From Pseudomonas putida (lineage in GTDB: Bacteria > Pseudomonadota > Gammaproteobacteria > Pseudomonadales > Pseudomonadaceae): a DNA stretch of 64,000 nucleotides. Shown here in pieces: positions 11,423 through 29,250 of this stretch. The DNA lies in the NCBI RefSeq assembly GCF_016406145.1, contig NZ_CP066306.1, positions 2,604,001 through 2,668,000 on the forward strand. The letters run 5' to 3'. The notes under the pieces are model-generated. The model was not told the origin of the DNA. It searched no databases and saw only the letters and a list, made by a program, of their open reading frames with translations. Position 1 is the first letter of the stretch. Every line of letters begins with the position of its first letter. A program made the position numbers and the translations under genes.

Positions 11423-11743
11423 AACCATGGCCGCGACATCCTGGTCGGTGACAAGGACTACGTCGACCTGACCAAACCGGGCGTTGAGCACTTCGTGGTC
11501 ATGCCCTTCAAGGCGACTATCGTCATCAACGCCAAGCCTCGCGTGGTGCACACCCGCTACCTGACCTACCAACAATTGGTTGAGCTGGCATTCCCTGGTA
11601 GCCAGCATCCTCCGTAGACGGTTTACACGATTGATTATGACCACGGCCCTCACGACCAACCGGAGGGTTCGGTGGCAGACGGTCAACAAGTTCGTGTCAA
11701 AGAGGGGATGGAATTCTATGTCTCGGTCAGTGATAAGTCTTAA
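11423..11743 (+). pseudogene. Multi-ubiquitin domain protein, C-terminal remnant with internal stop
   Basis: The frame carries VDLTKPGVEHFVVMPFKAT, a ubiquitin-fold unit end, then the next unit IVINAKPRVVHTRYLTYQQL and VELAFPG. A TAG at 11615-11617 interrupts it. The same frame continues TVYTIDYDHGPHDQPEG and VKEGMEFYVSVSDKS before the true stop at 11741. These are motifs of bacterial multi-ubiquitin proteins. The N-terminal repeats are absent: upstream is the end of the GGDEF-EAL gene. The last 26 bp overlap the start of the E1-like gene, showing the original operon. Confidence 0.7.
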
Positions 11744-12293
11744 TCAAACGCTCCTCGACCTCCGCAATGAGGGGTTCGAACTGGAAGTGCGCGAGGGTCA
11801 TTTGGTCGTGCACTCCATTCCCTACCTCAACGCGCAAGGAGAGGTGAAGCGCGGTACGTTCTTCTGTCCGCTCGATCAGCCCAGCCCTGACGTGGTGGGG
11901 ACTCCGAGCACTCATGTCATGCACTTCATTGGTGAATCCCCCCACAAGCACAATGGCGGCAGGATTACCGCAATTGAGTACTCGGCTGGAACATTACCCT
12001 TGACGTCGAGCCTGGTCGCGAACTTTGCCTTTTCAAACAAGCCGCAAGGTACCAATGGGTTTGCAAGCTTTTACGACAAGGTCTGGCATTACACCCGCAT
12101 CCTCTGGAATGAGGCTCGGGCTGCGGACCCCGACGTCACACCCCTGACGTATAAAGTGGTGGAGGCGGAGTCACCGGATTCCGTGTTCCATTACGAAGAT
12201 ACGGCTTCGGCGCGTTACGGTACCACGGCGCTCAACGCCAGGTTTAGCTCACTGCGTATTGCCATTATTGGTCTGGGCGGTACAGGTGCTTAG
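11718..12293 (+). pseudogene. E1-like ThiF-family protein with DUF6791-type N-terminus, truncated at the nucleotide loop
   Basis: About 191 residues. The N-terminal part (MSRSVISLNQTLLDLRNEGF; HVMHFIGESPHKHNGG; FYDKVWHYTRILWNEA) is the domain that precedes ThiF/E1 adenylation domains in multi-ubiquitin operons; I recall it as DUF6791. The ThiF domain starts LRIAIIGLGGTGA, the ATP-binding glycine loop, and stops there. Everything after the loop, including the catalytic cysteine, is missing, so it cannot activate a ubiquitin-like protein. It overlaps the multi-ubiquitin frame by 26 bp upstream and the JetD-like frame downstream. Confidence 0.7.
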
Positions 12294-13269
12294 CCTTTTC
12301 GTCGATAAGCTCATCCTCCAGCCCGGCAAGCGCGTCGCGTTGACGACTCTGAGAACTCTTTGGTTGGACGCGTATCCGGAACAGGTCGCAACGCCTGATA
12401 GGGATCAGCAGCTACTTGCAGCTTTAGCTTTGGCGCAGACACAGGGAGTTCTGCGCCTGCCCGGGCCAGCAAGCTTCGAGAAGCTGGGCAATCCCCCCAT
12501 GCCAAAGGCGGTGACTCTGATTCGGGAGGAGAGGCGTCCTCAAGCAATTGATTACGGCGCTGTTTCCTGGCTTCCTGAAATGGGTTTCTGGCCGAACCTT
12601 TCGCCAGGCGAGCAAGCGACCGCCTTCATGATCAACGAATGGCTCATCCGGCGGCGGGGGCGCTTCATGCAGGTGCCGCTTCGGGAGCGTTCACTCGATA
12701 TCTTGGGTGATGAGAAATTCCTGGATTCGCGGGCGCGCAATGGCGCGCTGTTCAACGGGCGCATGCCATTAAGTGCTATCGGGGCAATGCGGGTTGAGCA
12801 TCCACTTGCATATCGGCCAGCCGATGCCATTGGGTTACCCGTGCTTGTGGTCGAAAACCACCACACTTTATGGAGCCTGGGGGAGTGGAATGAGCAGGCT
12901 AAGCGCTACAGCGCCATCGTTTACGGGAGTGGTAACACTATCTGTGCCTCAGGATTAGCACTGGTTGAGGTCATGCGCGAACGAGAGGCCCAGCGAGCAG
13001 AATATTTTGGAGACATTGACCCCGAAGGACTGAGCATTCCGCTGAAATTTAATCGACTGCACGAACTACAGTTGAGTCCGGGCGTCTTCTTCCAGATGCT
13101 GCTCGAGGTGGGGCGGCGGCGAGAGCTTGTGATGCTTCCTAGCGGCTATGAAAGTTTGGCGACGGCTTGGCTGCCAGACTTGGCTGAGGAAGTGAATACC
13201 CTGTGGGGCGAGGGCTTCTGGTTGCCCCAGGAGGGTTTGGGTCTAGAGCAGCTCATGAGGACTAGCTGA
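12286..13269 (+). CDS. JetD/DUF2220-like Toprim-fold protein (Wadjet-type), start lost or altered
   Basis: About 327 residues. The C-terminal half has a Toprim-like signature: VLVVENHHTLWSL with the conserved Glu, IVYGSGNT, and AEYFGDIDPEGLSIP with the DxD pair. This matches JetD of Wadjet systems, where it is the nuclease that cleaves plasmid DNA trapped by the JetABC SMC complex. JetA, JetB and JetC are absent here. The N-terminal winged-helix part (KRVALTTLRTLWLDAYP) seems nearly complete, but the frame starts within the cut E1 gene. The only candidate starts are a TTG at 12259 and a GTG at 12286. It is either an orphan or dead. Confidence 0.6.
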   Translation: MLSLFVDKLILQPGKRVALTTLRTLWLDAYPEQVATPDRDQQLLAALALAQTQGVLRLPGPASFEKLGNPPMPKAVTLIREERRPQAIDYGAVSWLPEMGFWPNLSPGEQATAFMINEWLIRRRGRFMQVPLRERSLDILGDEKFLDSRARNGALFNGRMPLSAIGAMRVEHPLAYRPADAIGLPVLVVENHHTLWSLGEWNEQAKRYSAIVYGSGNTICASGLALVEVMREREAQRAEYFGDIDPEGLSIPLKFNRLHELQLSPGVFFQMLLEVGRRRELVMLPSGYESLATAWLPDLAEEVNTLWGEGFWLPQEGLGLEQLMRTS

Positions 13270-14188: not shown

Positions 14189-15135
14189 GGCTCTGTACGA
14201 AATCCCGAGAAACCCAATCGCCGCCCCTCGAACGCTGAGATTTTGTAGAGTCCCCCGTCATCAACGGAAAGGAATCCTGTGATGGCAAAGCGTTACGAAC
14301 TCTCGGACGAGGCCTGGGAGGTGGTGTCCGATCTCTTCATCGAAACCCATGGCCGAGGGCGCCCGCGCCTGAGCGACCGGCTGATGCTCGACGGCGTGCT
14401 CTGGGTACTCTGCTCGGGTGCTGCGTGGCGAGATATGCCGGAGCGCTTCGGCCCATGGTCAACGGTGTATCAACGGTTTCGGGGCTGGCGAAATCAGGGC
14501 ACGTTCGATCAGATGCTCAAACGTCTGCACCTGAGATTGAATGAACAGGGCTTGATCGATCTGCAAACCTGGATGATCGATTCAACCGCAGTGCGCGCAA
14601 CCCGAGCCTCATCTGGCGCCGGGAAAAAAGGGGGCCTGACGAGCCTGCCGATCACGCTCTAGGGCGCAGTCGCGGTGGTCTGACGACCAAAAACCACATG
14701 CTCTGCGACGCCAACGGGACACCGTTGCGCTTTCTCCTCTCTGGCGGTCAAGCCAGTGACATCAGCTATGCCCAGCCACTGCTGGACGAAGTCCGCATTC
14801 CGTCGAGCCAACGAGGCCGCCCGCGCAAGCGCTGTAAATGGCTGCTTGCTGACAAGGGATACGACGCCGAAGCGCTACGCCGCTACTGCGATCAGTATCG
14901 AATGCAGCCCGTCATCCCGCTGCGATCAATGAAGCGCAAAACCAAGCCTGGCTTACCCAGGCTGTTTGATCGGCCCAAGTACCGACAGCGCAACATCATC
15001 GAACGGATGTTTGGCTGGCTGAAAGAGAACCGCCGTATCGTGACACGCTTCGACAAGCTCGCGAAAAGCTATGCAGCTATGGTCTCGTTGGCTTGTTCCA
15101 TGCAGTGTTTGCGACATCTTTTTTCGTACAGAGCC
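14189..15135. mobile_element. IS5-family insertion sequence (frameshifted transposase type)
   Basis: The ends are 14-bp inverted repeats, GGCTCTGTACGAAA at 14189 and its complement ending at 15135. Each end is flanked by TA (14187-14188 and 15136-15137), a likely 2-bp duplication. Length is 947 bp. It holds one transposase in two frames. Layout and protein fit the IS427-like branch of IS5. Confidence 0.85.
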
Positions 15136-15138
15136 TAG
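14282..15138 (+). CDS. IS5-family transposase, two frames joined by a -1 shift
   Basis: First frame, 14282-14662: MAKRYELSDEAWEVVSDLF, GVLWVLCSGAAWRDMPERFG and MIDSTAVRA with the first catalytic Asp. Second frame, up to 15138: NHMLCDANGTPLRFLLSGGQ, WLLADKGYDAEAL with the second Asp, and RNIIERMFGWLKENRRI with the Glu. The frames differ by -1 and cross near an A6G5 run at 14624-14634. Translating with the shift gives the family-typical GGPDEPADHALGRSRGGL. Programmed frameshifting is usual in this branch, so the IS may be active. A random frameshift cannot be excluded. Confidence 0.85.
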
Positions 15139-15207
15139 TCCTTTGCACAGCTAGTTATAAAGGTTTAGAGCGTTTCAAAGCTTTCTCCTTGCCCGGGTAG
15201 TGGATGG

Positions 15208-15966
15208 TCATGTCAACGCCAGAGCAATCAGCTGTGGCAGTATTTTCTCAGCAGGGCCTATCAGCATGATCTCGTTCGGCCCATTCATGGATACATCTAC
15301 GTTATTGACGTGTATGACCACTGCACCAGACGCTAAGGCGATATCTGGTAAGTCAGCAGCAGGCCTGACCACACCGGAAGTCCCGATAGAAAGCAGGATG
15401 TCACACTGTCGTGCTGCTTGGCTGGCGGCTTTCCATACACCTGGCGGGAGGTACTCACCAAACCACACGATAGCTGGACGCAAGCGGCCGTTGCATCGGC
15501 GGCAGCGGGGCGGTTCTATCAAAGCGCCTTCCGCTGGAATAATCGGAAACACCAGCGGTTCCACGACGAATCGATGACAGGCGAAACACTTGGGGCGCAT
15601 CAGGCTGCCATGGAGATGAAGCACCTCCTGATTACCTGCCCGCTCGTGCAAATCATCAATATTCTGAGTGACCACGGTGACACTCCGGCCGCTGCCAGAT
15701 AACCGATGGATCGCCTGATGTGCCGCATTAGGCTTGGCTTGCATTACTTGCTGGCGCCGCCATAGGTACCAGCCCCAAACCAGCGCCGGATTTTCGCGGA
15801 ATGCCTGCGCCGTTTCTAAACGCTGCGGGTCTTGGCGCTCCCACAACCCGGTCAGCTCGTCGCGGAAAGTCGGAATCCCGCTGCCGGCAGAAACGCCAGC
15901 GCCGGTAAACACCATGATATGTTGCGCGGACCGCAGTGCCTCAGCGGCTTTTGCTAGGTTGTCCAT
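15208..15966 (-). CDS. Sir2-family NAD-dependent protein deacylase (sirtuin)
   Basis: 252 residues, complete single-domain sirtuin. NAD-binding TGAGVSAGSGIPTFRD (21-36), QNIDDLHERAG (101-111), catalytic His119 (HLHGS), zinc cysteines 127, 130, 155 and 158, and GTSGVVRPAAD. Tyr67 and Arg70 (WYLWRR) match the class III pair that favours acidic acyl groups such as succinyl, so it is CobB/SIRT5-like. It may be housekeeping-type deacylation, but some phage-defence systems also use Sir2 NADases. The single-domain form and conserved zinc site favour a deacylase. Confidence 0.92.
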   Translation of the reverse strand: MDNLAKAAEALRSAQHIMVFTGAGVSAGSGIPTFRDELTGLWERQDPQRLETAQAFRENPALVWGWYLWRRQQVMQAKPNAAHQAIHRLSGSGRSVTVVTQNIDDLHERAGNQEVLHLHGSLMRPKCFACHRFVVEPLVFPIIPAEGALIEPPRCRRCNGRLRPAIVWFGEYLPPGVWKAASQAARQCDILLSIGTSGVVRPAADLPDIALASGAVVIHVNNVDVSMNGPNEIMLIGPAEKILPQLIALALT

Positions 15967-19632: not shown

Positions 19633-20487
19633 ATGGAGAATCAACGCGAACACTTCGGTTTGAGCCGGCGTGAGATGCTGATTTTTCTAGGGGCTATGGC
19701 GTGGGCGACCACAAGACGAGCGCAAGCGGCGCCGACCCCTTTTGACACAGAGTTAGCCCAGGCCATTGCTTCAAACGACCTGTCTTTCACTGGTGCAGAC
19801 CGCGAAAAATTCATGGTCTACCCGGGCGATCAGCCCCGCTCTCAGGGAGGGTATCGTGGTCACCCGAGTGATCGGCAGATCTCGACATCAGCCAGGAGCC
19901 TAATTGTTGCTTGCGAGGTGACTAGCGAAGCCAACTACCGCTCCAAGCTCCAGAGCCCTATCTGGCCTGGTGGTGAGTCGGGCGTGACCATCGGCATTGG
20001 ATACGATCTTGGGTATACCACGGCAGCTAACTTCCGATCGGACTGGGCCCGGCTGCTGCCTGAGCCTACAGTCGTCAGGCTCGCAAGGTGTTGTGGAACC
20101 AAAGGAAGACCGGCATCACAGAAGACTAGAGAACTCCGCGACGACAAGGTTGGCTGGACAGAATCAAATACCCAGTTCGATGCGTACCTTCGGTATGTGG
20201 TTGGCCAGACGGAGGATACGTTTAAGAACTGCAGCCATCTCCATCTGGACTCTTTCGGTGCATTGGTCTCACTGATTTATAACCGTGGAGCCAGTCTTTC
20301 TCGCACGTCGGATCGTCGCCGCGAAATGCGCGAGATCTACGCACTTATGCGAGACCGCGATTTTGGCGCCATTCCAACCAAGTTTCGTGACATGAAACGA
20401 CTCTGGAAGGACGATCCTCAGGCACGAGGACTGCTGAAGCGGCGGGAACTTGAAGCGCTCCTTTTTGAGCAAGGCTTGAAGGCCTAA
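19633..20487 (+). CDS. Exported pesticin/T4-lysozyme-type muramidase
   Basis: 284 residues. The N-terminus LSRREMLIFLGAMAWATT ... AQAA looks like a Tat signal peptide (twin Arg at 12-13). The catalytic region is IVACEVTSEANY with Glu95, then WPGGESGVTIGIGYDLGY with Thr119 and Asp125. Glu, Thr and Asp in this order are the active site of pesticin/T4-type lysozymes. LDSFGALVSLIYNRGASL follows as a helical packing motif. The ATG at 19633 has GGGAG 8 bp upstream. The next gene, a CHAT protease, starts 15 bp after its stop, so the two form an operon. Expected role: cutting peptidoglycan in the periplasm or outside the cell. Confidence 0.75.
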   Translation: MENQREHFGLSRREMLIFLGAMAWATTRRAQAAPTPFDTELAQAIASNDLSFTGADREKFMVYPGDQPRSQGGYRGHPSDRQISTSARSLIVACEVTSEANYRSKLQSPIWPGGESGVTIGIGYDLGYTTAANFRSDWARLLPEPTVVRLARCCGTKGRPASQKTRELRDDKVGWTESNTQFDAYLRYVVGQTEDTFKNCSHLHLDSFGALVSLIYNRGASLSRTSDRRREMREIYALMRDRDFGAIPTKFRDMKRLWKDDPQARGLLKRRELEALLFEQGLKA

Positions 20488-20502
20488 CCTGGGAGCTCAA
20501 TC

Positions 20503-23136
20503 ATGTGGCACTATCGGCTCACAGCGGGGTTGCTTACTGTCTTCGTAGTGTTGCTGGCTGAATCCGCGATAGCGGCAAAATCTACAGACCAAGCGCGAAG
20601 TGTCGCCCAGCTAGTACACACGGGCGAATGGGAACTTGCGGCCGAGGGGGCGCGGATCGCACTCCAGTACCAGATGAGTCATCGCCGCGCTCCGGATGCG
20701 GTGCCCGCGGCAATCCTGTTGGCTCCCGCGCTCACTCTGCTAGATCGACATGCCGAGGCACTGCGCCTTCTGGCGCCATTGGGGAGCAGACCGGCAGTAG
20801 TAGCTGCACGGGGCACTATCCTATTGGATCAAGGCGACTATCAAGGAGCTACAGAGGCCTTTACGTTGGCACTACAAGATCCGGCGTCCCTGCCCAGAGT
20901 TACGCGGGCTCGGGTCATCTGCGAGCGGGCTTATGCTGACGAGCAGACCGGTGATACCAGTGCAGCTGCGGCGGGATATCTCGAGTCTTTGAAGTTGTAC
21001 GCCGCGGCTGGACACGAACAAACCTTCTTCATGGATCGGCCCCGTGTCAGTGGCACCTTATGGGACCCGGTTGCCCCGCAACCAATCAAAGTACCTGGGC
21101 CCGTAGGAGACGTGATTACTGAGCTTGATGCGCTGGGCGAACCTAATGCGCAGGCAGGTTATTACTCTGAAGCGTTCTCAGCGTATTTGGAGGAAGAGTA
21201 CCTAGACTCGTACCCGCGTGCTGGACCATTCGTGGACTGCCTTGTCCGGGTGGCCCAATATAAAGAAGCGACCGGCGAGAAGGAGCTGGCGCACGCGATC
21301 CTGCAGACCGCGATTGCGCAGGCCAGCGTATTGGAAGGGTTGGGGTACACGTATCGCCCAGCCCTTGTTTTCAGCGCGTACTTTGAATTTTTGGAACGGG
21401 CAAATTTCGAGCCCAAGCGGCTGGATCAGATGGCACAGTTTGCCCTGTTCGCAGCTGGGCAAATCAGTCCTGCATACAGTGAGGGCGACATCCGATCGCC
21501 AACGTCGCCGACATCCAGCCCGCGAATGAGGGCGTACCAGGCACTTGAAGCGGTACGACTGCGCTCGCTATTCAGGTCAGGTGAAATGTCTGACTCTGTC
21601 CGTGATGAAGCGTTTGTTGTAGCACAGGACTATCAATCGTCGATTGCGGCGCTTGCCGTTCACCGACACTCAGAAGGGAGAGTGCACCCGCGTGACCCTG
21701 CCGTTTTCACAAAGGCTGAGCACAAGGCGTTTTGGGAGCAGTTCGACCGGGACACGCCAAATAGCGCCCAACTGTCAGAGTTTCAGCTGAAACCTGGGCA
21801 GCTCTTTCTCATGATCAGCCCTGGTGCAGGTACAGGTGCCGGGCGCATTTGGGCGCAAGATACGCAGGGAACTGTGTGGGCCGCCCTCGGCACTGACCGC
21901 GAGACGTTACGTACAGACATCGAGACCCTTCGTTGCTCCCTGGACGTGAAGATGTGTTGCACGTTCCCTGCTAACTCACGAATGGGGGCTGCGTACCGCC
22001 GTCTCAAAGACGCATACATCGCCGAGTACAACCTTGATTCAGTCGAGGACTGCCCGTTACAAGAGGAGGACTTTGAGGCTTCAATAGCTTATCGAGTGTT
22101 CGACGAGATATTCGCCGATTCGACAATTCGAGGCATGGCTTCGAAGGCGGAAGAGTTGATCATTGTGCCTCAAGGGGAGTTAGCCTCGGTACCGTTCGGC
22201 GCGCTACCTTTTGAACGGCCGAGGGCAGGGCGCGGACCTGTCGCGGCGGCATCAACTAAGTGGTTGGGCTTAGAGAAGGCCATCCAGATCTATCCATCGG
22301 TCAACAGCTACTTAGAGGCGGATGTAAGTGAGCAGGCCCTCGACAAAATCCGCCTGTTTGGAGTGGGCGATCCGACCTTGGGTGACAATCTCGCTACAGG
22401 GCGTAAAGTCGATTGCACGCAGTTCACTCCCCGTAGCCGACGTGACCGCGGCGAGTCTTTTGGCGATCCGATGCGGGCGCTAGCGCCATTGCCAGGAACC
22501 CGGTGCGAGCTGCTGGCCATGTCCAAGCTCAAAGGCGTCGCGTCAAACAAAGCATCCCGTGTTCTCTTATGGGAGAGCGCCACAGAAACTGGGCTACGCG
22601 CCGCATCCAGAACCAAACGGTCCATGAACCAAGCGGAGGTTTTGGTATTCGCCACCCATGGGCTCATGCGAGGGGATTTTGGGCTCAAGAAGTCTGCCCT
22701 CGTGCTGTCCAGGCCAAGACTTAAAGGACCGACTCATTCAGACAGCTTCCTTACGTTGAGCGAAATCATGCAGCTGCAGCTGAAAGCGAGGCTTGCCATT
22801 CTTTCAGCGTGTAACACTGGCTCGAGTGGTGATGCTGCAGGTGATGCCTTGGCCGGCTTCGCCACTGCGTTCTTTCGAGCCGGCGCAGAGTCTGTATTAC
22901 TGTCTCAGTGGACAGTACGTGATGATGTGGCCGCTTTCGTTACGCCAAGGATAGTTGCGCTAATGATGGGAGATCCCACGATCAAAGAGTGTGAGCGGGG
23001 AGGCCAAGCAGACCGCAACGCTGCGGAGGCCATGAGGATGGCGCTTTGCGAGGCTCGGCGCAGCCAGGCGCTGGTTGCCGACTTACCAGGCGATTGGGCC
23101 CCTTTCGTGTTGGTCGGAGGGCGTTCCAAGCTATAG
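20503..23136 (+). CDS. Exported CHAT-domain (caspase-like) protease with TPR-like N-terminal region
   Basis: 877 residues. Signal peptide LTAGLLTVFVVLLAESAIAA. Residues 30-420 are helical repeats of TPR type (for example AALRGTI-like LLDQGDYQGATEAFTLALQD). From about 430 the CHAT domain begins: LIIVPQGELASVPFGALPFE, catalytic His719 in LVFATHGLM, catalytic Cys770 in LSACNTGSS, then DALAGFATAFFRAGAESVLL and a W near 915-style SQWTV motif. CHAT proteases are usually cytoplasmic (separase-like, gasdermin activators, Craspase); an exported one is unusual. It is paired with a muramidase and convergent with a trypsin-like protease. Confidence 0.85.
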   Translation: MWHYRLTAGLLTVFVVLLAESAIAAKSTDQARSVAQLVHTGEWELAAEGARIALQYQMSHRRAPDAVPAAILLAPALTLLDRHAEALRLLAPLGSRPAVVAARGTILLDQGDYQGATEAFTLALQDPASLPRVTRARVICERAYADEQTGDTSAAAAGYLESLKLYAAAGHEQTFFMDRPRVSGTLWDPVAPQPIKVPGPVGDVITELDALGEPNAQAGYYSEAFSAYLEEEYLDSYPRAGPFVDCLVRVAQYKEATGEKELAHAILQTAIAQASVLEGLGYTYRPALVFSAYFEFLERANFEPKRLDQMAQFALFAAGQISPAYSEGDIRSPTSPTSSPRMRAYQALEAVRLRSLFRSGEMSDSVRDEAFVVAQDYQSSIAALAVHRHSEGRVHPRDPAVFTKAEHKAFWEQFDRDTPNSAQLSEFQLKPGQLFLMISPGAGTGAGRIWAQDTQGTVWAALGTDRETLRTDIETLRCSLDVKMCCTFPANSRMGAAYRRLKDAYIAEYNLDSVEDCPLQEEDFEASIAYRVFDEIFADSTIRGMASKAEELIIVPQGELASVPFGALPFERPRAGRGPVAAASTKWLGLEKAIQIYPSVNSYLEADVSEQALDKIRLFGVGDPTLGDNLATGRKVDCTQFTPRSRRDRGESFGDPMRALAPLPGTRCELLAMSKLKGVASNKASRVLLWESATETGLRAASRTKRSMNQAEVLVFATHGLMRGDFGLKKSALVLSRPRLKGPTHSDSFLTLSEIMQLQLKARLAILSACNTGSSGDAAGDALAGFATAFFRAGAESVLLSQWTVRDDVAAFVTPRIVALMMGDPTIKECERGGQADRNAAEAMRMALCEARRSQALVADLPGDWAPFVLVGGRSKL

Positions 23137-23149
23137 AAAGACTCGGCCC

Positions 23150-23195
23150 GGGAATTAAGAGTTGTTCGGACTATCGCATCCAACTCTAAATTCCC
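23150..23195. terminator. Stem-loop between convergent operons
   Basis: Arms 23150-23164 and 23181-23195 (GGGAATTAAGAGTTG and CAACTCTAAATTCCC) pair at 14 of 15 positions around a 16-nt loop. It lies 14 bp after the CHAT gene stop. No T-run follows, so it may be a weak terminator or an mRNA-stabilising hairpin. 23196-23337 holds no recognised gene. Confidence 0.4.
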
Positions 23196-23337
23196 AGCTC
23201 TCCAGCTACCCCAACTCGGGGGAGGACGATCGCACTCTCTATTACACCATGCAGGAGGAGTTCATCGACCCCATTATCGAAGTAACGGAGCCGGAGACCT
23301 GACCTGCCGGCAGCACATCGATCGCCTCGAACCTCTG

Positions 23338-24702
23338 TTATGGTTTCGGTTCCAGCTTTGCAGTAATGAAAGCATCTATCCAGCCGCGCCATTGATCATA
23401 GATGGGCCCACTTTGGAGGCTGTAGCTTACTAGCAGGGCTTTTCCATCTGGGCTTATTTGAACATTGGCTCCTTTGCTAGGAGAGTGGTTGAGGCTTACG
23501 TAATCTATTTTCAGGAATTCCTTGAAGACAAACCCTTCCGGCGCAGGAATGGTGTCTTTGAAGTCCTTTGATGTAATCTCTATGTTATGCGTATCAAGGG
23601 TTTTTGAGTAAGGGAAGGTTTGTACTCGAAAGCTGGGGGCTGCGTTTTTTGGTGATGTCGGCTCCAGCAATACTTCGATATTTGCGTTTACTGATGTTGG
23701 CAATTTGGGTTCTTTGCTAGTCCCTTTCACAAATATTTTAGAGCCATCCTTTGGAACGAATATTTCTGTTTTAACCCCTGGTTGATCGACTTTAATCGAT
23801 TTGTAGGCCACGACCTTGTAACCTGTCGGTGGCGGTATTTCCTTCACAACTTTCGAGTAATCGATTGTTTCAGTGGTTATCACCTCAGCTGCTACTGGGC
23901 GTGGCTCCCGGCCCACCTTGATCGGTGATTCAATGAGGGCTGTGAACTGTGGCTTCAACTGTTTACCACAGTCAGGGTCGTAACTAACCCCCGCGAGTGG
24001 TTTTGAGGCATCACCAAGCGTCTGCATAACTTTTGACATTGGAACAGCTATGGAGGTTGATTGCATGCGCTCTGAGCCAACAGTTTTTTCACCAATTGCA
24101 ATACCAAATACCATTCCTAGCTCGTTGAAGATTGGACCACCACTATTTCCTTTGTTTAACGGTATTTGCACCAGAATACTCGATGTCGCCCCAGCGCCAG
24201 CCATAACTGGTCCGTAATTACTCGTTAGTATTCGGTCTCCACCCTGGTAGCCCAATACCACGAAGTCGAAATTTCCGGCTCGTTTGTAGTTATCGCATAA
24301 ACGCAAAAAGGGTCTCACTGTGTCTGAGTTCTTGATGCGTAGTAATGACACATCGTAGGGTGATTGAGTGGCAGTGATCACCTCCAACTCAACCGGCGGA
24401 TCGACTGCGCTCAGTGCATCCTGATCCTTAGCGGGAAAATACCCTTCAATGAAGAAGCCATCTTCATCGAACAGAGATTTATCTGGGATATTGTGGCCGG
24501 CTGAGAGCACCAACCCATCCGGAGAAGCAACGAAGCCGGTACCGCGCTCATGGAAGTCCACTGATTGTTCGTTGGGAAGAGGCCGCTTGAGTGTGCCGTA
24601 GACATGGAGCTGTATAACGGCAGGCCCAGCTTCAAAGTATGGCTCGCCTAGCGCCGGCATTGCTGTGAGCGCTGCAGCGAAGGAAATTAGCCCCCTAAAC
24701 AT
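23338..24702 (-). CDS. Exported trypsin-like (S1-fold) serine protease with C-terminal beta repeats
   Basis: 454 residues. Signal peptide FRGLISFAAALTAMPALG. Catalytic triad His70 (VLSAGHNIP), Asp117 (SPYDVSLLRI) and Ser187 (NKGNSGGPIF), as in DegP/S1C proteases, but no PDZ domain. After about residue 245 there are two related Ig-like stretches beginning PPTGYKVVAYKSIKV and APEGFVFKEFLKIDYVSL. The start overlaps the last 8 bp of the amidase gene, so both are one operon. Target unknown; it could mature or destroy exported proteins from the same cluster. Confidence 0.82.
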   Translation of the reverse strand: MFRGLISFAAALTAMPALGEPYFEAGPAVIQLHVYGTLKRPLPNEQSVDFHERGTGFVASPDGLVLSAGHNIPDKSLFDEDGFFIEGYFPAKDQDALSAVDPPVELEVITATQSPYDVSLLRIKNSDTVRPFLRLCDNYKRAGNFDFVVLGYQGGDRILTSNYGPVMAGAGATSSILVQIPLNKGNSGGPIFNELGMVFGIAIGEKTVGSERMQSTSIAVPMSKVMQTLGDASKPLAGVSYDPDCGKQLKPQFTALIESPIKVGREPRPVAAEVITTETIDYSKVVKEIPPPTGYKVVAYKSIKVDQPGVKTEIFVPKDGSKIFVKGTSKEPKLPTSVNANIEVLLEPTSPKNAAPSFRVQTFPYSKTLDTHNIEITSKDFKDTIPAPEGFVFKEFLKIDYVSLNHSPSKGANVQISPDGKALLVSYSLQSGPIYDQWRGWIDAFITAKLEPKP

Positions 24703-25477
24703 GCAATTGAGGCTCTGTTCGATAGGAGTGGAGCTTTAGCACTGGACCATCCTTGAGGAGCGACTTCCGGTTTATCGTATGCCTGGTTGGCGTCCCCTCA
24801 AACTGATTACCGCCAAGCACTAACACCTTGTCACCTTGATCAGCCAGAAAAAAACCGACGTGCCCCTTACCTTGTGACCTCATGTTTTTGAAAACAACAA
24901 TGTCACCCGGGTTAGGTGATTTTGTCTCCTTTCCCCAGTCTCTGAATGAAAGCGCAGCAGCACTCTTGGTCCGGGGGCTTGCATCTGGCGGAAGCGTTTT
25001 GCCAGTCGAGGCCATCATGAGGCAGTAGTTCATGAACGCCGCGCACCATGCTGTCGTGTCTCCACTGGGCTGAAGCCTTGTGGCCTTGAAAAACTCGACG
25101 ATCACTGGGTTCCATCGTACCGGCCAAGCAGTGATGTAGGGTTTGCGGTCCTCTCCGTACTTGCCTTGACCCACGTCGTGGAAGTACAGAGCGATCTCAA
25201 TTGGAGTACAATTCATGGGCACCGCCTTAAGCACCTCACGGGCAAGTCTCTCTTCCGCGCTCGTTGCCGCCTGGGTGCCCATCGGTGTGTAGTCTGTGAG
25301 CACGCCTTGGTTGAGGGACGGCTGATCCTTGAAGGCTTCCAAACTTGATGGAATGAGTGGTGCTTCATCGTCTTCCTGCGCGAGGGCACTCCAGTTCGGC
25401 CCGTCTGCCAATACGAATCGTGGTACGACTGCAGCGAGGCAGGTAGCTACCAAGATGTCGCGTCGTGATAGAGACAT
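24695..25477 (-). CDS. Exported Cys-His (CHAP/NlpC-like) peptidoglycan amidase
   Basis: 260 residues. Tat-type leader MSLSRRDILVATCLAAVVP. Catalytic region TTAWCAAFMNYCL with Cys145, then SFRDWGKETKSPNPGDIVVF and GKGHVGFFLADQG with His206, and VLGGNQ. This order is typical of the TIGR02594-type CHAP amidases that cut stem peptides. MSLSRRD at 25477 is chosen because it gives the Tat leader; an upstream in-frame ATG (25519) would bury it. It is followed by the trypsin-like gene with an 8-bp overlap. Confidence 0.78.
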   Translation of the reverse strand: MSLSRRDILVATCLAAVVPRFVLADGPNWSALAQEDDEAPLIPSSLEAFKDQPSLNQGVLTDYTPMGTQAATSAEERLAREVLKAVPMNCTPIEIALYFHDVGQGKYGEDRKPYITAWPVRWNPVIVEFFKATRLQPSGDTTAWCAAFMNYCLMMASTGKTLPPDASPRTKSAAALSFRDWGKETKSPNPGDIVVFKNMRSQGKGHVGFFLADQGDKVLVLGGNQFEGTPTRHTINRKSLLKDGPVLKLHSYRTEPQLHV

Positions 25478-26236
25478 GGGAGTGCCCTCAAGTATGTTGC
25501 TGTGTACGCCCTGTCCCAAGTGGGGCGGGCTCTAGTGTCGGCAAAGTCAGCACAATTACTTCAAGTTGAAATAACACCCAAGAACGGAACAACCCTAGCT
25601 AAGCATTCTCGATGGGGGAGTACGGATCAAACTGGTCACAGTTAGTAATAGTAGCTCGCTAACCTATTCTCGCTACTTGTGGCACTCAGTGAGTATCCCG
25701 GCAGGGGACATACTGTCGCCTTCAGCTTCGGTCCGCCATACGTGCGGCTCACGCGGTTCCACAAGAATTGGTGGCTCGTAAAGATCAGCTGCTTGGCTTG
25801 GGAAGCCGGCGGATGCTCTACCCGATAGGACACAGAGTAGCCCTGGGAGCTCAGATTGTGAGATTTGGCGAAGGGTGTTGATGATCACGATGCAATTCTT
25901 CGGAAATACTGTATTAATAAACAGCCTTGGCTTACCCGTCAAATCCTGGTAGAAGGAGTTGTTCATCATTTTGCTGCTGCGCAAGGCAATGTGCCGGCAC
26001 CGGCTCCTTGCATGCTCCGGGTCAATGCTGCCTTCAGCGGTGAAACTGCGCATCGCTGTACAGCCTAAAAGTCAATGCTCTCGAGTCCGTGCGAAGTCGG
26101 GGGATGGTGTCGGCGAATATATGCCTCCAGCCGCAGAATATCCTTTAGTAGGCGTTTGAAAGCCGTGAGGCAGCTCGGCCACCACTCGACCGCGTGCGCC
26201 CGTCAGGTCCGGTAGTAGAGAGCGCCGGCGCCTGAT
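25478..26236. other. 759-bp stretch with no confident gene
   Basis: A 126-residue frame on the minus strand (25673-26053) contains FYQDLTGKPRLFINTVF but has no recognised domain, no clear Shine-Dalgarno and no leader. I would not call it a gene without homologues. The part next to 25478 probably holds the promoter of the amidase-protease operon. Confidence 0.3.
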
Positions 26237-27154
26237 CTACTTCGGTTGGTGTTTCAGCAGAAACTGGTACGGTTTGTTCTCGGTCCCGGATCCGTCAAAA
26301 GATGTTGATGACCAGTAGGAATACCCTATCACACGTGGATCATTGGCCATTATTTCCTCGGTAGCAGATAGGGCTTTCCCCATCGCCTCGTCCCAAGTGT
26401 ATCTACTCCATTGCTGTCCGTAGGCTGCAAGACCGAGCAAAATGGGGCCTCTGATACCCTTCATTATTCCTGCTATGTAATGCTGCCTGTTACCCGGGCC
26501 TGTCCTGCTGTCATCGAAAGGTTTGCAGTCTTCTTGGCACTTGCTGTAGGCCTGCATAGAGACAAAGTCGGCCGCCGACAGCGGAATCTCTTTAGCTCCA
26601 ATGTGGCCCCCATGGGTTGTAATGCCCACTGATACACCTGGCTTCAGAGCCTTCACCCTATCCTTCAGGTCTTGAAATGCCTCGGCATGGGTTTTGTAGC
26701 CGCAAACTGCGTTACGCCTCCACTTGCCCTCAAGATCAAGCTCAACTGCATCGATGCCACCGGTAACCAAGGCGGGCACTAGGTCTGAGCTTGAATCGAG
26801 AAGGTCATCAATGGCGACCTTCGTTGGTGGCAAGTACACAGTCGCTATGACATGCATCTGCTTAGCTCGAAGAGCTTTCACCAGCTTCTCTACTTGGTCC
26901 AACGTGGCAAGAGGTATTGGTCTCTCGGCTTTGGAGGCAGGGATATGGGGCGGACATTTAGTTGCTTCTGCAGGGTCCTTCGTCAGCATGATGTGGACAC
27001 GGCGGACACCAATGTCTTCGAGCTTTTGGATCAACGCGTCTGAGTAATTTGCAGGGCTTTTCCACCACACGCCACGCCCCTTGAGCACATCCTCGATATC
27101 AGCTGCTGACACACCCATTGAGAGCATTATCAGCAGGAACAGCGCTTTATTCAT
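26237..27154 (-). CDS. Exported TIM-barrel protein with GH18-like acidic motif
   Basis: 305 residues. Signal peptide NKALFLLIMLSMGVSA. Beta/alpha pattern: GVRRVHIMLTKD, MHVIATVYLPP, GGIDAVELDLEG (134-143; Asp140 and Glu142), VSVGITTHGG, FVSMQAYS, ILLGLAAYGQQW and VIGYSYWSS. The DxE on strand 4 followed by MQAYS is like GH18 chitinases and related glycosidases, but I do not see the full DxxDxDxE. Function as a glycan hydrolase is inferred. It stands alone between the amidase operon and the divergent GH75-like gene. Confidence 0.6.
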   Translation of the reverse strand: MNKALFLLIMLSMGVSAADIEDVLKGRGVWWKSPANYSDALIQKLEDIGVRRVHIMLTKDPAEATKCPPHIPASKAERPIPLATLDQVEKLVKALRAKQMHVIATVYLPPTKVAIDDLLDSSSDLVPALVTGGIDAVELDLEGKWRRNAVCGYKTHAEAFQDLKDRVKALKPGVSVGITTHGGHIGAKEIPLSAADFVSMQAYSKCQEDCKPFDDSRTGPGNRQHYIAGIMKGIRGPILLGLAAYGQQWSRYTWDEAMGKALSATEEIMANDPRVIGYSYWSSTSFDGSGTENKPYQFLLKHQPK

Positions 27155-27350
27155 GTTGGGTCCACCGGGCTGATTGGTTGGATCAGCTTAGATTAGCCTC
27201 TGTGCGCCGTCCAATGAGCTCGGAGGCAAATTCGCGATATGCCTTATTATGGAATTAAATTTGATCCTCCTTGACGCGGGGCCGGAATGCGTCTGCACTG
27301 AGAGCTATAGCGTTCCCTCGAATTAATCATTGTTCAAGCGTCCTAGGTGA

Positions 27351-28403
27351 ATGTACATGAGAGTCCACTCGAAGATAGCTAGTGTGTTGTTACTATTAGG
27401 TGCTTCAATGTCAATCTTTGCAGACGACTGTGGAGTGCCGGGGGCGATAGTAGGAAAATTAGATAAGAAGAAAATCGATTTAAAGGCTCGTTTCTTTCAA
27501 GACGGATCAATAGCTGTGAGAGCACGGTTATCTGTAAACCCAGATGGTGGTCCTGGTTCGTACACAGTTGGTGATCACGGATTCACCTATATTGCGAATG
27601 GTCTATCTGCCTGGCGGAATGGTAAGCGCCATGAGTGCGACATACCGTGCTCAAAAGAGTTTAGAAAAGCTGAATCGAAAGGCTTCGAAACTGGCACCAC
27701 CGAGTTCTGCGTCTTCGCGATGGAGGTCGAGCCGTTGGAACCAGGCCGTGGACTTGTGTCATGCGGTGACGGACGACTTGTAATTGGGAACGGTAAGGGG
27801 AAACCAAAATTGGGCGGTATGCTAGATACTGTTACCGGCAAGCAAGTCAGATCTTATGTTTCTACAACATCTAGTAGGCATACTATTGAGGGGGTTGTTC
27901 AGCATTTGGATTCTGAAACACTCCCGATCGCCGTTACGCCAAGGACTGATCTGCTTGGAAAGGTTGTTTGGATAGGTGGTACGGGTTACAGAAGCACGTA
28001 CGCCATAATCGGGGACAAAGGTCCTGCATTCGGTGAGGGTTCTATAGCGCTCCACCAGCTGTTGCGTACTGGAGTAATTTCAGAGCAGAAGTCAGGACCT
28101 ATCGCTTTAGAAGATCGTTGTGGGGCTGGCGAACTAGGATTGCGGCCACCGTTTCAATCAAGACCGGACCGTCCTAGTGACAAATGCAGACCTGGTTATA
28201 CGGCTAAGTCACCAAGCGATATTCGAGCCTACACAGGTATAATAGAAGAGTTGGATTTCGTGGTTCTTGGCGATGCCAAATTTCAAATGGATGGTAGAAT
28301 AATAACAGAGGCAGTTTCTGCTGAGTCGATAAAGTCGACGGCGGACAAAGCTGGCTACACAAAAGAGGCAATTGATAAAATGCTCGCATGCCTTCCAAGG
28401 TGA
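27351..28403 (+). CDS. Exported GH75 chitosanase-like protein
   Basis: 350 residues. Signal peptide ending MSIFADDC. Residues 215-240, STYAIIGDKGPAFGEGSIAL, match the GH75 chitosanase pattern (an Asp in GDxGP and a Glu in GExS; here Asp222 and Glu229). LDFVVLGDAKFQ resembles an earlier strand of that fold. The N-terminal 180 residues are not recognised. ATG 27351 and ATG 27357 are both possible; the latter is better spaced from AGGTG. Base composition is clearly AT-richer than the core genes. The wall sugar target is unknown. Confidence 0.5.
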   Translation: MYMRVHSKIASVLLLLGASMSIFADDCGVPGAIVGKLDKKKIDLKARFFQDGSIAVRARLSVNPDGGPGSYTVGDHGFTYIANGLSAWRNGKRHECDIPCSKEFRKAESKGFETGTTEFCVFAMEVEPLEPGRGLVSCGDGRLVIGNGKGKPKLGGMLDTVTGKQVRSYVSTTSSRHTIEGVVQHLDSETLPIAVTPRTDLLGKVVWIGGTGYRSTYAIIGDKGPAFGEGSIALHQLLRTGVISEQKSGPIALEDRCGAGELGLRPPFQSRPDRPSDKCRPGYTAKSPSDIRAYTGIIEELDFVVLGDAKFQMDGRIITEAVSAESIKSTADKAGYTKEAIDKMLACLPR

Positions 28404-28408
28404 ATTTA

Positions 28409-28450
28409 AGTGCTTGTGATTAAATCCGTTCAAAAGTGATCACAAGCACT
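28409..28450. terminator. Bidirectional terminator-like hairpin
   Basis: A perfect 12-bp stem AGTGCTTGTGAT/ATCACAAGCACT (28409-28420 and 28439-28450) with an 18-nt loop, between the convergent chitosanase-like and lipoprotein genes. Confidence 0.55.
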
Positions 28451-28461
28451 GCTTAGTTGAA

Positions 28462-29250
28462 TTAGAACTGCTTGGTGCACGAATCGAGCCGAGCAAGAAC
28501 CAAGGTTTCTTCTTCTTGCGCAAGGTTCGCGCTTGCAGCTTTTGCAGCAGCTCCATTTTTTATATATATATCGAATTTTGTATTGGCATCCATCTCAGCT
28601 CTCAGAGCTTCTTTTAATTGTTTCAAGTCTGGGTCCTTCAGAACCACAGTAGACTGAGCCTGATACAGCTTTCGGCGAACTTCTTCGATATTTTCAGACG
28701 CTGTTGTTATGCCCGGATTGGAGAGAGGGGTTACATCTGGGAGGGGAGCGACAACACCCAGCATGCAGTCCATGGCGATACTGGCTTTACGGTAGTTCAA
28801 TGCCTGAATCGTAAAATCATAGCGCTGGCCGTAGATGGAAGAGCCGGCCGCAATGGCACTCCCGGTGTAAACGGTCGAGGCTGATTTAGTTAAACCTCCG
28901 ATAACACCGATGATCCCACCAGCCACGGCCGTGTCCTTGGCAGCGTTATTCGCGGTGACAAGGTCGTTATGGACCTTGAAATAATGATCGCGGTAGATCA
29001 TCAGGTTGAGCTTCAAGTCGTGTTGAGTCTCTGGTTTCTTTAAGGCCGCGGCGAGTGCACCTAGTCGTTCTGGGTTTGCTTCTCGCTGTGTACGTGCAGG
29101 CCTAGTCTTTCCACCGCCCCCCACGCCGGTTTGAGGCTGGAGAACGGAGTCATTCTCTGTTGGTTCATTGACGGGGAGGGGGTAGGGGTTAACACAACCT
29201 GTGAGCAAGCTAATCGATAGCACAGTTGCAGGGCCTAAACCTAAGCGCAT
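28462..29250 (-). CDS. Hypothetical lipoprotein
   Basis: 262 residues. The lipobox LLTGC gives Cys19 as the lipid anchor, and there is no Asp at +2, so outer-membrane sorting is likely. Then a low-complexity linker (QTGVGGGGKTRPAR). A glycine-rich hydrophobic stretch (GGIIGVIGGLTKSAS...SAIAAGSS, about 112-140) could insert in or lie along a membrane. Helical C-terminus. Family not recognised. Position suggests it belongs to the exported hydrolase block, perhaps as an anchor or immunity protein; that is a guess. Confidence 0.6.
   Translation of the reverse strand: MRLGLGPATVLSISLLTGCVNPYPLPVNEPTENDSVLQPQTGVGGGGKTRPARTQREANPERLGALAAALKKPETQHDLKLNLMIYRDHYFKVHNDLVTANNAAKDTAVAGGIIGVIGGLTKSASTVYTGSAIAAGSSIYGQRYDFTIQALNYRKASIAMDCMLGVVAPLPDVTPLSNPGITTASENIEEVRRKLYQAQSTVVLKDPDLKQLKEALRAEMDANTKFDIYIKNGAAAKAASANLAQEEETLVLARLDSCTKQF

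Follow-up and report, generated by a model that had tools for sequence, protein, structure and literature searches.

Recurring pairs of a Tat-leader peptidoglycan hydrolase and an exported protease, present twice in a probably acquired region of Pseudomonas putida: a candidate self-destruct or defence module

Introduction

Activation of an effector by a protease has recently been shown to recur in bacterial immunity, and the effectors known to be switched on in this way attack DNA in the cytosol. According to the portion of Tuck et al. 2025 (PMC12799240) considered here, a nuclease encoded beside a trypsin or a caspase is a proenzyme that is opened by that protease; such nuclease-protease pairs occur in Hachiman, AVAST, Lamassu, DRT and canu caspase-nuclease loci, and further enzyme classes are expected to be activated in this way. 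System 3 of Kaur et al. 2020 (PMC7159879), in the sections of that paper at hand, combines a trypsin with NucA, an EAD1-linked lysozyme and a papain-like peptidoglycan peptidase, while the searched text on the LypABC and CARD-NLR systems (PMC13236601) reports trypsin-like peptidases as being required for cell lysis.

The locus compared with these systems lies in a 64,000-nucleotide stretch of Pseudomonas putida (assembly GCF_016406145.1, contig NZ_CP066306.1, positions 2,604,001 to 2,668,000), referred to as the window. It holds two gene pairs of the same kind, lys-chat and chap-tryp, in each of which a Tat-leader peptidoglycan hydrolase is coupled to a Sec-leader protease. No description of exported wall-hydrolase/protease pairs was found in the open-licence PMC literature, a scope that leaves aside most subscription papers and preprints, and within that scope the sequence-only reading, according to which the mixture of enzymes matches no described system, was borne out.

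Results

The block spans positions 19,633 to 29,250, and all seven of the open reading frames from which the sequence-only reading had composed it are present. The first pair consists of lys (19633-20487, plus strand; Pfam Phage_lysozyme, 23.2 bits against a cut-off of 22.3) and chat (20503-23136, plus strand; Pfam CHAT, 132.9 bits, cut-off 24), and the second of chap (24695-25519, likely start 25477, minus strand; Pfam CHAP, 32.3 bits, cut-off 26) and tryp (23338-24702, minus strand; Pfam Trypsin_2, 50 bits, cut-off 27.6), so that the domain search proposed earlier backs all four enzyme types, and every active-site residue named for these four proteins is in place. A third module comprises gh6 (26237-27154, minus strand), p7 (27351-28403, plus strand) and lipo (28462-29250, minus strand), for which the Pfam scan returned no match above cut-off. 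The open reading frame at 25673-26053, which had no Pfam match, was taken as a non-gene.

Export leaders were judged by eye and by a simple hydrophobic-stretch rule, a heuristic as distinct from a trained predictor. By eye, lys and chap carry twin-arginine (Tat) leaders with the motifs SRREML and SRRDIL, respectively; Sec-type leaders are seen, by eye and by the rule, on chat, tryp, gh6 and p7, and lipo has the lipobox LLTG-C. The rule assigns a leader to 7/7 block genes, in line with the earlier claim that every gene product is exported, as compared to 10 of 51 other picked window ORFs with a length of 130 aa or more (p 6.5e-5, hypergeometric).

The lys product is predicted to be a Tat-leader muramidase of the phage-lysozyme/pesticin type, its E95, T119 and D125 being invariant among 25 aligned lysozyme relatives, and chat, which begins 15 bp past the end of lys on the same strand, reads as a Sec-leader CHAT (caspase-like) protease with a helical N-terminal half and with H719 and C770 present. 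Three exported lysozymes have 82-90 residues ahead of the catalytic domain and 22 other relatives have 1-69, sizes that are based on the longest ORF starts. The P. putida plasmid pNY5709-IMP (L003) carries lys and chat at approximately 96% and four upstream genes at 84-90%, and in the 42.6 kb examined of this plasmid tryp, chap, gh6, p7 and lipo were unmatched. The chat copy of pNY5709-IMP (L003 20001-22627) is split over two reading frames. In a family-level sample, a chat relative was found in 1 of 198 genomes, that one being its own.

In the second pair chap comes first, both genes lie on the minus strand and they overlap by 8 bp. The chap product is predicted to be a Tat-leader CHAP-type peptidoglycan amidase or endopeptidase, with C145 and H206 (numbered from the ATG at 25477) invariant among 11 CHAP relatives, and tryp appears to encode a Sec-leader trypsin-like protease with C-terminal repeats that we read as beta-rich, its H70, D117 and S187 being invariant among 17 trypsin relatives. 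The motif SGPxYDQWRGW ends both tryp and the protease of locus L206. The prophage contig L112 from IMG/VR, which stops within its tryp gene, holds a chap relative at 76% and a tryp relative at 53%, preceded by ORFs that were read as tail, endolysin and spanin genes. A tryp relative was present in 1/398 genomes of a genus-level sample, again its own, and a CHAP profile matched 12/398 genomes of a phylum-level sample, apart from the window mostly as core-domain matches. The PADLOC hits to tryp, which seem to reflect similarity common to trypsins in general, were set aside.

What recurs is the pairing of a hydrolase with a protease, an arrangement that the block contains twice. Outside the window, and with L003 as a 96% copy of lys-chat also excluded, 13 of 16 Tat-leader hydrolase genes (15 loci in all) lie next to an exported gene of the trypsin or caspase family; under a strict count, in which the protease has to exceed its Pfam cut-off or be clearly homologous to tryp, the figure is 8/16 (L112, L034 twice, L206, L207, L204, L209 and L029). 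The protease calls at L208, L027 and L035 are weaker, being below the Pfam cut-off, and a local profile is the basis for those at L026 (no Pfam hit) and L241. L034, a locus also represented by L178 and L240, supplies two of the 16 genes, in the order lys, trypsin, two more ORFs, chap, trypsin. Near copies (H61, H65, H66, H68, H81 and H82) were left out of the counts, and the examined loci are part of the similarity matches, namely 9 of the 20 listed in a set with 12 more records, 6 of 28, 4 of 8 and 2 of 8.

The Tat-leader CHAP relatives, whose leaders were judged by eye, have an exported protease gene on the same strand in 9/12 cases, overlapping or within 22 bp, gaps that depend on the chosen start codons. 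The partner is trypsin-like in L112, L034, L206, L207, L208, L026 and L241 and a C14 caspase in L204 and L209; the three CHAP genes with no protease neighbour are those of L205, L192 and L261, the last of which has what reads as an IS21-like element downstream. All four Tat-leader lysozyme relatives have a protease, on the same strand in L029 (4-bp overlap) and L034 (14 bp) and divergently in L027 (gap of 531 bp) and L035 (approximately 215 bp). The class of the protease thus varies (S1, C14, CHAT) against a constant hydrolase family.

Relatives that lack a Tat leader served as the control, and an S1, C14 or CHAT gene was found at 5/107 of these loci and a protease of any kind at 8/107. The scripted part of this control comprised 77 lysozyme loci (L036-L111 and L030; 32 clusters at 80% identity, 14 loci having less than 1.2 kb on one side), of which none had an S1, C14 or CHAT gene within 1.2 kb, and 18 CHAP-core loci from a Hyphomicrobiales sample, of which 3 did; Tat leaders were sought in this part by rule and by eye, with Sec leaders outside that screen. 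Twelve loci were added by hand (L024, L025, L028, L032, L033, L260 and L262-L267), L033 being treated as equal to L032, and in L024, L025, L028 and L264-L267 a protease was absent by annotation or profile. A first local trypsin profile recovers 13/13 left-out members and misses two Pfam trypsins of L032, and a wider profile that includes the latter left the values of 0/77 and 3/18 unchanged. The non-Tat loci near a protease are L032, L033, L242, L245, L256, L260, L262 and L263: Sec-type leaders are seen on both the CHAP and the trypsin-like neighbour of L256, leaderless lysozyme-LysM-CHAP fusions adjoin trypsin-like and NTPase-like genes in L242 and L245, a C1 peptidase lies within 200 bp in L260 and L263 with a caspase farther on, and an S8 peptidase is nearby in L262. 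Fisher's test gave p 3e-11 for 13/16 against 5/107 and p 8e-10 against 8/107, p 4e-9 with L034 counted once, p 4e-7 against clustered control lysozymes (8/62) and p 1e-4 with the strict 8/16, values that hold for this sample only, since similarity, in part followed in a chain, led to the loci.

The glycosidase-like character claimed earlier for two genes of the third module was substantiated by fold and profile comparison. The predicted model of gh6 (mean pLDDT 85.2) matched TIM-barrel glycoside hydrolases of the GH5/GH2/GH18 type in the PDB by Foldseek (best E 2.1e-8, TM approximately 0.5-0.59), and on the strength of this model gh6 is regarded as a TIM-barrel glycoside-hydrolase-like protein, with family level left aside; it bears a Sec leader, its E138, D140 and E142 are invariant in 16 aligned rows, at least 18 relatives were listed, and a relative occurred in 2/298 genomes sampled, its own among them. 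The p7 family profile matched the solved chitosanase V-Csn (E 1.1e-9), and by manual count D222 and E229 align with the D148 and E157 named in PDB titles, so that p7 is predicted to be a GH75 chitosanase-like enzyme, also with a Sec leader, that has both catalytic acids in its catalytic region. There were 156 p7 relatives at E 1e-3 or better, one of them named a GH75 chitosanase by its source, and a search of the species-genome collection, whose reach was set by the two peptide patterns serving as query, gave 11 loci. The lipoprotein lipo had no match in Pfam, NCBIfam, PADLOC or PHROGs.

In Pseudomonas laurylsulfativorans gh6-p7-lipo stands alone at 80, 70 and 76%, the 76% lipo relative being convergent with p7 in L012, and gh6 and p7 relatives occur on equal-sized contigs (171718, 198407, 746964 and 3711), in two cases with neighbouring locus tags; the three genes probably form a separate, independent secreted glycosidase module. 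On P. aeruginosa plasmids a lipoprotein gene is convergent with a leaderless CHAP gene (L024 10812-11690), a similar layout with no significant similarity to lipo, and homology between the two lipoproteins is unproven (BLASTP E 0.28). Around p7 relatives, Pararhizobium gei (L007 33-12395) encodes a trypsin-PLD fusion and a protein matching a Hedgehog signalling domain at 170 bits, and Rhizobium phaseoli (L017 12855-14762) a GDSL-caspase protein approximately 2 kb away; the same GDSL-caspase protein follows a leaderless CHAP gene and a C1 papain peptidase gene in series in Rhizobium/Sinorhizobium (L260 4917-9578 and L263 4758-9481).

The proposal that the seven genes act as one functional unit was not upheld, because lys-chat, chap-tryp and gh6-p7-lipo were each found without the other two, in the case of chap-tryp on a contig that stops inside tryp, and among the loci examined two of the three modules occur together in the window only, for which reason a single conserved seven-gene system was rejected. 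Pseudomonas sp. PDM27, where a tryp relative and a gh6 relative are on contigs of equal size (252272), counts against a clean separation of the modules. The block is probably a stack of acquired modules. GC content is 0.48-0.58 over 19-30 kb, 0.54-0.57 over approximately 10-19 kb and 0.60-0.66 to the right of 30 kb, and the low-GC island (approximately 10-30 kb) further carries mer genes, a two-ORF transposase, a JetD-like ORF and a sirtuin. The earlier suggestion of acquisition accords with this low GC, with the mobile elements and with the rarity of the genes in our samples, which mark the block as rare and probably acquired. Within the island, the JetD-like ORF (Wadjet family; PADLOC 259 bits) overlaps a ThiF-like ORF that is shortened at its end (11580-13269), no other Wadjet genes being recognised in the part of the window that was read, and the transposase, read as IS5-like, adjoins the sirtuin-type deacylase (14279-15966).

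Two alternative readings bear on this arrangement. The block might be a random set of acquired exported enzymes that are adjacent by chance or through shared insertion sites, as the dispersal of the seven genes elsewhere and the low-GC, element-rich island would allow; however, chance would have to account for the excess of 13/16 over 8/107 in relatives without a Tat leader and for overlapping or nearly overlapping pairs across several bacterial families with differing protease classes, and we hold this to be the least likely of the readings considered. The exported enzymes might alternatively form a lytic cocktail that digests the walls of competing bacteria or fungi, for antagonism or feeding. 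Export of all seven proteins, the stacking of three modules in the window and the GH75-like p7 and glycosidase-like gh6, with activities useful on fungal walls, agree with such a role; the separate occurrence of the modules, the lack of any secretion or immunity gene seen in the block and the strict pairing of a wall hydrolase with a protease, which a cocktail leaves unexplained, make it unlikely.

The pair loci sit on plasmids, in prophage-like contigs or next to recombinases, and in several bacterial families. Five of ten neighbour genes from seven loci match PADLOC models (in L208, L026, L207, L204 and L027), a count that is merely suggestive because these neighbours were chosen by hand, and a PifA match of 792 bits lies approximately 1.3 kb from the pair of L027. 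This setting raises the possibility that the pairs aid plasmids or prophages, for instance by opening the wall for transfer, through superinfection exclusion or by assisting release, and the catalytic domains are indeed those of phage endolysins and tail lysozymes. Against this, none of 50,697 phage records had a match covering 80% of the L034 lys or chap protein, and transfer genes adjoined no pair in the annotated tables examined, so that we consider a role in mobile-element biology improbable. An ordinary phage lysis cassette was rejected on the same phage-record search and on the absence of a holin or spanin match among the seven block proteins. Viral contigs scanned with chat, p7 or a single chap protein gave nothing useful.

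Discussion

The genes, their leaders as judged heuristically, the active sites, the tight coupling and the recurrence with exchange of the protease class were obtained by computation, and suggest that the recurring pair is a small undescribed self-destruct or defence module, a function that is predicted. The reading that we prefer, to which we assign a probability of roughly 45%, is that of a protease-unlocked lysin which would kill its producer under envelope attack. In the scheme that we infer, which includes a proenzyme state, a direction of activation, a trigger and defence as the benefit, the wall hydrolase would leave the cytosol via Tat and the protease via Sec, both to act in the cell envelope, where the hydrolase would be held inactive, probably by the extra segment behind its leader. 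An insult such as phage entry or envelope damage would then switch the protease on, which would cut the hydrolase free, resulting in a breach of the wall and cell death, and the death of the producer may benefit its kin or the resident mobile element. The idea of a proenzyme draws on the precedent of paired nucleases and proteases (PMC12799240) together with the longer N-terminal segments of the exported lysozymes, and no trigger or sensor gene was seen for the pairs. Killing of the producer, one of several options raised in the sequence-only reading, is retained among the likeliest roles.

A broader version of this proposal, which we regard as rather doubtful, would have the pairs stand for a widespread and unnamed class of immune or suicide modules located in the envelope, each with an exported protease of the caspase, CHAT or trypsin type that unlocks a Tat-exported lysin. 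Such modules would be the periplasmic equivalent of apoptosis-like activation by proteolysis and could respond to phage or damage at the envelope with no cytosolic sensor. Were the protease-unlocked lysin correct, caspase- and trypsin-type death switches would operate in the periplasm, at the site of a phage's first encounter with the cell. The pair is a two-gene system and is open to direct testing.

When the window pairs are set beside the described systems, phage endolysins and tail lysozymes share their catalytic domains with the window hydrolases, which differ in having a Tat leader, an extra segment and a paired protease and in lying outside a lysis cassette. The LypABC and CARD-NLR systems differ in being NLR- and nuclease-based and without a wall hydrolase, peptidoglycan and periplasm being unmentioned in the text searched. 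As far as the consulted sections of PMC7159879 describe it, System 3 is similar in joining proteases of the trypsin kind to wall hydrolases of the lysozyme and papain-like types, and is mostly alphaproteobacterial; its trypsin-like peptidase has a counterpart in tryp (Trypsin_2, 50 bits) and both of its wall-hydrolase types are present in the block, but here they are EAD1-free and carry Tat leaders, all seven proteins have leaders, CHAT replaces the second trypsin, and NucA, EAD1 and STAND had no match among the seven block proteins. Locus L032 (5233-14817) combines two trypsins, one of them an EAD1-trypsin whose EAD1 match is below cut-off, with a lysozyme-like protein and an nSTAND1 NTPase; it is probably a cytosolic relative of the pairs and links the System 3 kind to the lys family.

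The nuclease-protease pairs of Tuck et al. 2025, so far as the portion of PMC12799240 considered here goes, are alike in that the gene of a destructive hydrolase adjoins that of a trypsin- or caspase-family protease, in that the protease class is exchangeable and in their mobile or defence-rich setting, and such an adjacent protease is supplied in the window by chat and tryp and elsewhere beside 13/16 genes. They differ in that their effector is a cytosolic nuclease of the MBL fold, whereas the window effectors match Phage_lysozyme and CHAP, with a Tat-leader wall hydrolase in place of the cytosolic nuclease and with an exported protease, and neither an NTPase nor any other core sensor gene was seen. 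Activation by proteolysis has been proven for those pairs and is proposed here for the window pairs. By analogy, the window pairs resemble a stand-alone, exported relative of this nuclease-protease logic.
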